The notes under the pieces are model-generated. The model had not been told where the DNA came from and ran no database searches. It saw only the letters and a list, made by a program, of their open reading frames with translations. From NCBI RefSeq assembly GCF_007846095.1, contig NZ_VOEI01000002.1, positions 620,001 to 684,000 on the forward strand: a stretch of 64,000 nt of DNA. The letters are read 5' to 3'. This document shows positions 51,102 to 51,634 of this stretch, one piece after another; position 1 is the stretch's first letter, and the number at the start of each line of letters is the position of its first letter. Origin of the DNA: Mucilaginibacter achroorhodeus. GTDB lineage: Bacteria > Bacteroidota > Bacteroidia > Sphingobacteriales > Sphingobacteriaceae. Made by a program: the position numbers and the translations under genes.

Positions 51102-51223
51102 TCTACCCCCGCCGCCCCAATCAAAGGCAGAATATAATAAAGATTTTTCTTTATTAAAAAACACACCATCCCCTACCCATCTGTAGATGATTTTAACTTT
51201 AATATTGCAGATAAAAAACCATG

Positions 51224-51294
51224 TTTTCCTGCATGGACTCGAACCACGATCTTCTGAACCAAAATCAGACGTGCTACCATTGCACCACAGGAAA
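51224..51294 (-). tRNA. tRNA-Gln(TTG)
   Basis: Folds by hand into a full cloverleaf: acceptor TTTCCTG/CAGGAAA, D stem GTGC/GCAC with GG in the loop, anticodon stem TCTGA/TCAGA with loop TTTTGGT (anticodon TTG), T stem CGTGG/CCATG with loop TTCGAGT, discriminator A. The acceptor is unusually AT-rich, and no CCA is encoded. It is the last gene of a three-tRNA cluster. Confidence 0.9.
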
Positions 51295-51304
51295 ATAGAA
51301 CAAG

Positions 51305-51377
51305 TGGAAATAGAAGGACTTGAACCTTCAACCGGTACCGTATAAGGGCACTGCTCTAACCATTAAGGTATATTTCC
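51305..51377 (-). tRNA. tRNA-Ile(TAT)-like, weak D stem
   Basis: Acceptor GGAAATA/TATTTCC, anticodon stem GTGCC/GGTAC with loop CTTATAC (anticodon TAT, codon AUA), T stem GAAGG/CCTTC with loop TTCAAGT, discriminator A. In the D stem CCTT/GAGC the 10-25 pair is C-C and 13-22 is a U-G wobble, so it is unusually weak. Most bacteria read AUA with a lysidine-modified CAT tRNA instead. It lies 10 bp from tRNA-Gln. Confidence 0.8.
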
Positions 51378-51388
51378 TTATAAATCAG

Positions 51389-51462
51389 TAGGGTAACCCG
51401 GACTCGAACCGGGAGCCTCCGCATCCCAAATGCGGTAATCTAACCAATTGATATACTACCCT
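51389..51462 (-). tRNA. tRNA-Pro(TGG), weak D stem
   Basis: Acceptor AGGGTAG/TTACCCT, anticodon stem CCGCA/TGCGG with loop TTTGGGA (anticodon TGG), T stem CCCGG/CCGGG with loop TTCGAGT, discriminator A. The D stem TATC/GATT has a 10-25 U-U mismatch. It is the first tRNA of the cluster, 11 bp before tRNA-Ile, and begins 17 bp after a terminator hairpin. Confidence 0.88.
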
Positions 51463-51478
51463 GAAATGGCCTGAAAAC

Positions 51479-51510
51479 AAAAAATCCCCTTAGAAAATGT
51501 CTAAGAGGAT
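51479..51510 (-). terminator. Intrinsic terminator between micro-ORFs and the tRNA cluster
   Basis: On the minus strand ATCCTCTTAGA (51510-51500) pairs with TCTAAGGGGAT (51494-51484) around a 5-base loop, an 11-bp stem with one wobble, followed by TTTTTTG. It stands directly ahead of tRNA-Pro and could act as an attenuator. Confidence 0.82.
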
Positions 51511-51523
51511 CTCAAGTATTCAG

Positions 51524-51541
51524 TTATTTTTTACAATACAT
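51524..51541 (-). CDS. Second leader micro-ORF, MYCKK
   Basis: ATG TAT TGT AAA AAA TAA. A perfect 9-base Shine-Dalgarno sequence GGAGGTGAT (minus strand 51555-51547) lies 5 bases upstream. The stop of the first micro-ORF is inside that sequence. Five codons are too few for a product, so a regulatory or ribosome-recruiting role is likelier if it is used. Confidence 0.35.
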   Translation of the reverse strand: MYCKK

Positions 51542-51547
51542 ACCCAA

Positions 51548-51601
51548 TCACCTCCGACTAATCGGTTGCGGCAATTGTATTTGTATTGTTGTTGTTTTCA
51601 T
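51548..51601 (-). CDS. Leader micro-ORF rich in Ile, Gln and Pro codons
   Basis: A 17-codon frame encoding MKTTTIQIQLPQPISRR. Residues 6-14 are I-Q-I-Q-L-P-Q-P-I, with codons ATA CAA ATA CAA TTG CCG CAA CCG ATT. Eight of nine are codons for the amino acids of the three tRNAs encoded just downstream (Ile, Gln, Pro). A promoter (TTG, 18 bp, TATAATTG) ends 4 bp before the ATG, so the transcript would be leaderless. The frame ends in TGA, embedded in GGAGGTGAT. Too short to be found by length criteria; support is the composition and context. Confidence 0.5.
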   Translation of the reverse strand: MKTTTIQIQLPQPISRR

Positions 51602-51605
51602 GATG

Positions 51606-51634
51606 CAATTATAAGTATTATTTTTTGAAATCAA
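51606..51634 (-). promoter_or_regulatory. Promoter of the leader/tRNA transcript
   Basis: On the minus strand a -33 CTTG (TTG at 51634-51632), an 18-bp spacer and TATAATTG (51613-51606; seven of eight matches to TAnnTTTG). Transcription would begin at or next to the micro-ORF ATG at 51601. Confidence 0.5.

Follow-up and report, generated by a model that had tools for sequence, protein, structure and literature searches.

A probable leader-peptide attenuator ahead of a redundant tRNA array in Mucilaginibacter achroorhodeus

The leader and its tRNA trio

A 64,000-nt stretch of the genome of the soil bacterium Mucilaginibacter achroorhodeus (Bacteroidota; Bacteroidia; Sphingobacteriaceae), positions 620,001 to 684,000 of contig NZ_VOEI01000002.1 and hereafter called the window, carries on its minus strand three transfer RNA (tRNA) genes, for Pro, Ile and Gln, behind a short leader open reading frame (ORF) and an intrinsic terminator. 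This unit was analysed in the window and in related genomes, the loci being numbered with the prefix L and the genomes with the prefix G. The folding and codon comparisons described below make it very probable that the leader is a transcription attenuator of the trp/his type which works through the ribosome; a spare tRNA array would be its output, and the codons read by the array tRNAs would serve as its control codons.

A sequence-only reading of the window had listed, in this order, a promoter-like box, the leader ORF, GGAGGTGAT, a second small ORF, a terminator and the three tRNA genes, and all of these are found on the minus strand as described (Table 1). The terminator with its T run was correctly recognised, but its stem, given as 11 bp, comprises 13 bp in the minimum free energy (MFE) fold. 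TTG and TATAATTG together are presumed to form a Bacteroidota-type promoter. Of 62 leaders, a set conditional on an ORF filter that accepted 15-21 residues with K, R or N as the second residue, 59 have a -7 box (TAnnnTTG) that ends 4 nt ahead of the start codon. A separate tRNA promoter downstream of the terminator, which would have spoken against attenuation, would not fit: only 16 nt separate the end of the T run from the start of tRNA-Pro, and a Bacteroidota-type promoter is about 33 nt long.

Table 1. Features of the leader-tRNA unit, in positions of the window
Feature	Position	Strand	Details and basis
Promoter-like element, Bacteroidota type, predicted	51606..51634	-	TTG (51634-51632), 18-nt gap, TATAATTG (51613-51606); sequence
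Leader ORF, 17 codons, near-leaderless	51548..51601	-	MKTTTIQIQLPQPISRR*; ATG at 51601, four nt past TATAATTG
Control codons (leader ORF codons 6-12)		-	ATA CAA ATA CAA TTG CCG CAA; sequence
Protector hairpin (regions 1 + 2)	51533..51589	-	outer stem CAATACA/TGTATTG, middle CAATTGCC/GGTGATTG, inner CCGA/TCGG; MFE
GGAGGTGAT	51547..51555	-	overlaps the leader stop; part of region 2 (antiterminator strand); resembles a perfect Shine-Dalgarno sequence
Second small ORF	51524..51541	-	MYCKK*; sequence
Antiterminator	51499..51558	-	51558-51551 (including GGAGG) with 51508-51504 and 51501-51499; fold of ribosome-masked RNA
Intrinsic terminator	51479..51512	-	13-bp stem (hairpin 51512-51482) and T run; MFE
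tRNA-Pro(TGG), second copy	51388..51462	-	46/75 identical to housekeeping tRNA-Pro(TGG)
tRNA-Ile(TAT), reads ATA	51304..51377	-	41/75 identical to the CAT tRNA taken as tRNA-Ile2; 47/76 to tRNA-Ile(GAT)
tRNA-Gln(TTG), second copy	51223..51294	-	48/72 identical to housekeeping tRNA-Gln(TTG)

The 4.28-Mb genome holds a single copy of the unit. In it, 45 tRNA matches exceed the Rfam cut-off. Among them are a further Pro(TGG), a further Gln(TTG) and three tRNAs with anticodon CAT, and from its sequence we take one of these three to be tRNA-Ile2. Given these housekeeping counterparts elsewhere, the Pro-Ile-Gln trio is redundant. Its members are strongly diverged from the housekeeping tRNAs; the anticodon loops of Pro and Gln resemble the housekeeping ones by eye.

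Alternative folds and leader codons

Folding of the leader RNA yields three helices that compete with one another: region 1, which holds the control codons, pairs with region 2 (GGAGGTGATTGGGTATGTATTG), region 2 with region 3, and region 3, which is the terminator 5' arm, with region 4. In the first of these, the conserved ATGTATTG of the second ORF pairs with CAATACA of codons 5-7. The alternative partners of GGAGG are the ORF codons in the protector hairpin and CCTCT in the 5' arm of the terminator. The sequence-only reading had found no strong antiterminator fold; one exists, made by GGAGG and the terminator 5' arm, both in the folding and in the pairing profile of 60 leaders given below. 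The second ORF and the Shine-Dalgarno-like sequence that it had listed are present, but look mainly like elements of the RNA fold. In many relatives the second ORF consists of no more than start-TAT-stop, its ATG is missing from L053 and L056, and a coding role of its own was rejected because pairing with the control codons explains most of it. The inner stem of the protector alternates between CCGA/TCGG and CTGA/TCAG, one pair being U-A in 40, C-G in 21 and broken in 1 of the 62 leaders, and 11 stem pairs of the terminator are retained in all 62 aligned leaders.

For each position of the ribosome, the share of the terminator 5' arm that is paired with region 2 while the 3' arm has yet to be transcribed was computed for all 60 Mucilaginibacter leaders; a computation on the 47 leaders of 17-18 residues gave the same picture. 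Mean antiterminator pairing is 0.21 in naked RNA and 0.60-0.69 with the A site 15 to 6 codons before the stop (0.69 at 9 codons). It is 0.22 at 5 codons and 0.01-0.11 from 4 codons before the stop to the stop itself, where it is 0.04. The open window of ribosome positions therefore takes in the control codons and shuts just past them. Shuffling of region 2 flattened the profile, while shuffling of region 1 abolished protection and raised pairing in naked RNA from 0.21 to 0.55. All three fold criteria were passed by 40 of the 60 leaders, compared with 12/180 and 32/180 shuffled controls. By computation, then, protector and antiterminator are mutually exclusive, with the position of the ribosome deciding between them, and the intrinsic terminator stands between the leader ORF and the output genes.

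The short ORF also contains codons cognate to the genes behind it, and its codon content, as the sequence-only reading had asked of relatives, is conserved among them and varies with the set of tRNA genes in the array. Arrays vary between loci by the presence or absence of Cys, Phe, Thr, Asn or extra Gln tRNAs. The association of codon and tRNA was counted over 60 loci as both, codon only, tRNA only and neither. With loose tRNA calls the counts were 37/1/0/22 for Cys (p=1.6e-15), 12/10/1/37 for Phe (p=4.9e-6) and 43/13/0/4 for Gln (p=0.0049); with strict calls they were 35/3/0/22, 11/11/0/38 and 40/16/0/4, respectively. The class that is nearly empty is that of a tRNA without its codon, with one loose Phe case in L045. 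The sole Cys codon without tRNA-Cys is that of L030, where the tRNA in the middle of the array carries an anticodon loop of 8 nt, called as gcaa.

As shared descent inflates raw association tables, models of dependent and independent change were fitted on a locus tree, which was built without the control codons and is weakly supported. Correlated evolution was found for Cys (likelihood ratio (LR) 41.9, p=1.7e-8), Phe (LR 22.7, p=1.5e-4) and Gln (LR 10.3, p=0.036), and five non-cognate control pairs gave p=0.097-0.52. With unit branch lengths the LR was 54.9 for the Cys pair (42.3-55.9 over 12 bootstrap trees) and 20.0 for the Phe pair. Coupling of codon and tRNA is firm for Cys and less so for Phe. 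Ile codons are ATA in 124 of 125 cases in the control region, compared with 1 of 50 over the final five codons of the ORF; since RNA pairing fixes ATA in part, this bias supports the sensing of array tRNAs and does not decide it.

Several loci stood outside the association and fold tests. L064 and L069 are short or decayed, with one tRNA found, L062 has no leader ORF, and L065-L068 and L070 gave no leader by the terminator pattern. L052/L176 has a 23-residue leader, MKTIAIQHPILEPPEPEVTEYIL, that fails the ORF filter; its array of Pro, Ile and Gln agrees with the codons. L054 was also left out and, fetched again as L189, shows MKNTICIPSRFPQLIYQRR ahead of Pro, Ile and Cys, again in agreement.

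By eye, a sequence like that preceding tRNA-Cys in L011 persists behind the tRNA-Gln of the window; a tRNA-Cys once located downstream, and with it the Cys codons, may have disappeared from this lineage. Anticodon loops of 8 nt were called in array tRNAs of L021, L026 and L030 (tcta, ttta and gcaa); L028 has a weaker call, with anticodon TTA.

Distribution and dissimilar leaders

Matches to the unit at E <= 2.9e-42 occur in 61 of 149 Mucilaginibacter genomes; a broader tally of 106/149 takes in matches to single tRNAs. When 399 genomes of the family were searched with a covariance model of the leader, seven outside Mucilaginibacter gave strong matches (E < 1e-7). Five of these have tRNAs, namely Pedobacter G328, G436, G378 and G412, of one genus, and Hufsiella ginkgonis G172, while in G354 (Pedobacter ginsengisoli) and G414 the leader matched and no tRNA was found. 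A scan of GTDB contigs with the terminator pattern added Pedobacter caeni and Chitinophaga barathri. The weak family hits L180-L182 and L184-L188 were rejected as they have no tRNA; of the hits with E > 1e-5, a minority were examined. Class-wide, the leader model gave 64 hits at E <= 0.01, 62 of them outside its own genome; all 62 were scanned for tRNAs, and only L142 has a tRNA array behind the leader. Twenty stand-alone tRNA-Gln genes (L190-L209) were considered as degenerate members and set aside, since no leader is seen by eye upstream in the stretches inspected, and L267 (G904) holds no array. A tRNA-Ile(TAT) pattern matched 15 of 395 class genomes, only the window's own match lying at a tRNA gene according to ARAGORN.

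Two leaders may stand in series, directly or with tRNAs between them (L171, L172, L173, L231 and L251). In four of these loci the inner leader has no -7 box by eye, so that the transcript would have to pass both leaders; the inner leader of L231 has its own. In relatives a palindromic AGAAATTTCT lies about 41-43 nt upstream of the start codon, and if up to two mismatches are allowed, 26 of 62 loci have it in the 75 nt ahead of that codon; it is a possible activator site. A similar element precedes the downstream tRNA-Cys in L012, L013 and L015. Sub-threshold Rfam hits to Plastid-ycf2, antisense to tRNA-Ile(TAT) in many loci, probably reflect a likeness to plastid tRNA-Ile.

Four further loci were found independently of codon content, through the covariance model (L142, L266) or by similarity to L266 (L327, L331), the leader ORF being picked by eye as the one ahead of the terminator. 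L142, from another family of the class, has VKNMILHFIQPQQLRPQSEEGDNYA ahead of Pro, Gln, His and Leu(TAG), with P, Q, H and L codons in the leader; an Arg-Phe pair follows 363 nt further on behind another terminator, and scoring was limited to the first unit with its four tRNAs. L266, from the family of C. barathri, has MTTIKHTRFNDSYRLFPAGMSMY, with leader codons K-H-T-R-F, ahead of Phe, Arg(ACG) and His, and L327 has MTQTVYTSCFKSGFRPAGKHML, with leader codons S-C-F, ahead of Phe and Cys. At L331:822-1567 a 56-codon leader and terminator precede Glu, Gln, His, Ile(TAT), Lys, Asn and Tyr, with Phe further on; phage and plasmid records match parts of this array only. L266 and L331 have HTRFN in common, and a relationship between the two is possible.

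Every scored tRNA has a readable codon in the predicted open window (L142 4/4, L266 3/3, L327 2/2, L331 8/8). The chance of this with random codons, drawn from long ORFs in six frames of the window and hence only roughly representing genome codon fractions, is 0.036, 0.024, 0.027 and 0.20, respectively, or 0.072, 0.088, 0.067 and 0.31 over the whole leader. In all four the antiterminator is lost near the stop in the computed folds. The matches in six other genomes comprise two leaders (L327, L331), two arrays (L326, L328) and two single tRNAs (L329, L330). Of the genera of L327 and L331, one has, outside G994, 10 matching genomes (of 14), which match the query's tRNA-Cys part only, and the other is represented by one genome.

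The same class contains, as judged by eye, leader peptides with terminators that are His-rich (L143-L145), Cys-rich (L149, with five Cys codons ahead of a sulfite-reductase-like ORF) or Met/Cys-rich (L161). These are probably amino-acid attenuators of Bacteroidota, and their presence makes it plausible that attenuation machinery is native to these bacteria.

Mechanism, alternatives and significance

The attenuation proposed by the sequence-only reading is supported by leader codons that track the array tRNAs, by the alternative fold and by the same logic in dissimilar leaders, and we judge that the locus probably belongs to the leader-peptide attenuators. Computation shows the parts, the alternative folds, how these depend on where the ribosome is and the codon-tRNA co-evolution, while translation of the leader ORF, actual switching and the natural trigger are inferences. 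RNA polymerase would start a few nt ahead of the ATG, and a ribosome would enter the leader ORF at once. If the control codons were decoded promptly, the ribosome at the stop would cover region 2 with its GGAGG, the terminator would form and no tRNAs would be made. If a charged tRNA were scarce, the ribosome would stall on ATA, CAA or CCG and mask region 1; region 2 would then pair with the terminator 5' arm, the terminator would fail and the Pro, Ile and Gln tRNAs would be transcribed. Without translation, the protector hairpin would keep region 2 and the terminator would form.

A number of observations weigh against this interpretation. At least one fold criterion is failed by 20 of the 60 leaders, 18 of them because the naked RNA is unprotected (>= 0.3). 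In most folds the antiterminator is less stable than the complete terminator, so that switching must be kinetic, during transcription. Outside the genus, leaders are open even when naked in L172, L177, L231 (first leader), L142, L266 and L331; L142, L266 and L331, with values of 0.69, 0.81 and 1.0, have no strong protector. A tRNA lacks its codon for Ile in L029, Pro in L043 and Asn(att) in L038, and Phe codons occur without tRNA-Phe in 10/60 loci and also in Pedobacter leaders. In C. barathri the match is partial, with tRNA-Lys(CTT) lacking AAG and a Cys codon lacking tRNA-Cys. Non-cognate pairs are significant in the raw tables (T with tRNA-Cys 1.9e-4, S with tRNA-Gln 0.0013, C with tRNA-Gln 0.0023), a consequence of their inflation by shared descent, and unit branch lengths raise the controls Cys-F (LR 16.5, p=0.0024) and Phe-C (LR 11.6, p=0.021). 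Supported branches offer 3-4 independent pairs, which are too few; of the three for Cys, two change the same way, none the opposite way and one shows no difference. In six Gln(CTG) arrays the control-region Gln codons are CAA, which speaks against sensing at the level of isoacceptors. The Chitinophagaceae arrays L326 (Gln-His-Ser-Phe) and L328 (Gln-His-Arg-Ser-Phe) have no clear leader; by eye, a similar GC-rich hairpin lies upstream of both.

The strongest alternative, although an unlikely one, keeps the same attenuator and supposes that it senses amino-acid starvation through the charging of Ile, Gln, Pro, Cys or Phe tRNAs, the extra tRNA being part of a general starvation response. A ribosome on the leader cannot distinguish an uncharged from a missing tRNA, CAA ahead of Gln(CTG) would mean that the amino acid rather than the isoacceptor is sensed, and the ordinary-looking amino-acid attenuators seen by eye occur in the same class. 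However, more tRNA does not relieve an amino-acid shortage, the sensed set shifts with the array, and the sensing of Ile almost only via ATA, partly fixed by pairing as it is, fits tRNA-Ile(TAT) and not isoleucine as such. It is improbable that the ORF is no sensor at all and that the leader is a structured RNA, such as a processing leader or a protein-binding or Shine-Dalgarno-dependent switch, with codons that follow from pairing. Pairing does constrain much of the ORF (CAATACA/TGTATTG and CCGA/TCGG), and GGAGGTGAT is a perfect Shine-Dalgarno sequence in a phylum where such sequences are rarely used. Against it, codon 8 alternates between Cys (TGC/TGT) and Ser (AGC) in step with tRNA-Cys even though the folds of L012 and L017, unlike that of L043, leave its first base unpaired. 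In the last five residues, moreover, Cys and Gln codons show no association with the array (p=0.14 and 0.37; Phe p=0.044 on two loci), and cognate codons recur in dissimilar leaders elsewhere. A travelling tRNA array with a frozen leader and no present function could account for the patchy distribution (61/149 genomes of the genus), the varied neighbours (upstream, 22/60 loci group together and 29 stand alone; downstream, 33 stand alone), the decayed copies L062 and L178 and the remnant leader without tRNAs in Pedobacter ginsengisoli (L179/L257), but it is the least credible explanation, since coupled codon-tRNA changes and a conserved ORF, spacing and terminator imply continuing selection, and a viral or plasmid origin was rejected: viral contigs gave no exact hit to the terminator pattern, plasmids gave none to the leader, and phages (3 records) match the tRNA part only.

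With attenuation by a sensing ribosome as the preferred interpretation, we judge tRNA depletion, for example by tRNA-cutting toxins, to be a somewhat likelier trigger than simple starvation for amino acids: those sensed have no biosynthetic relation to one another, their set changes, Ile is read almost only via ATA, and the output is tRNA and not enzymes of biosynthesis. The diverged tRNA bodies might let the spares escape a nuclease that reads the tRNA body. Tentatively, and at somewhat less than even odds, the unit may be a self-sensing tRNA backup circuit, in which diverged spares stay silent while the leader tests the tRNAs codon by codon and are released when one is destroyed, for instance by tRNA nucleases delivered on contact or triggered by phages; this would confer immunity or allow recovery.

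Leader-peptide transcription attenuators are known for amino-acid biosynthesis operons (trp, his, ilv, leu and thr), one Rfam model of them being His_leader (RF00514). The unit shares with them a short ORF with control codons, the protector, antiterminator and terminator alternatives and a stall position that decides between these. It differs in that the genes behind the terminator are tRNAs and not genes that make or import the sensed amino acid, that several unrelated amino acids would be sensed at once by control codons matching the array anticodons, that the ORF is near-leaderless and that attenuators may stand in series. In T-box riboswitches, RNA control likewise answers to tRNA status, but there the RNA binds tRNA directly, whereas the reader here would be the translating ribosome. 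The T-box model found no match at gathering score in the window, L142, L266, L327 and L331, nor up to E 0.1 in 73 related loci. At gathering score Rfam matched only tRNA in the window and these four loci. The sole Rfam matches lying on leaders were overlaps with SpR14_sRNA, below threshold, in L171 and L251.

In one study, phage-encoded tRNAs with changed anticodon loops have been proposed to counter host anticodon nucleases (PMC10264068). As there, extra diverged tRNAs could replace cleaved ones; here, in contrast, they are chromosomal, lie behind a switch that would sense decoding failure of the same codons, and have Pro and Gln loops that by eye look the same as the housekeeping ones. Within the same phylum, leader-peptide attenuation has been predicted in Flavobacterium psychrophilum, in the part of that report consulted upstream of amino-acid biosynthesis operons rather than tRNA genes (PMC9723704). 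The sequence-only reading had called tRNA genes an unfamiliar output for a leader-peptide attenuator, and no report of such an output was found in the open-access literature searched.

Promoters, gene dosage and turnover are generally regarded as what determines the supply of tRNA in bacteria. If the attenuation reading is correct, decoding failure would directly switch on the genes of the failing adaptors, one leader would read several unrelated codons, and tRNA shortage would be a measurable natural signal. This would explain redundant, diverged tRNAs such as tRNA-Ile(TAT) in some bacteria, and would offer a compact multi-codon sensor and a ready test for tRNA-targeting warfare in Bacteroidota. 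If the backup circuit also holds, array and sensor codons would change together, and the set kept by a lineage would record which tRNAs its enemies attack.
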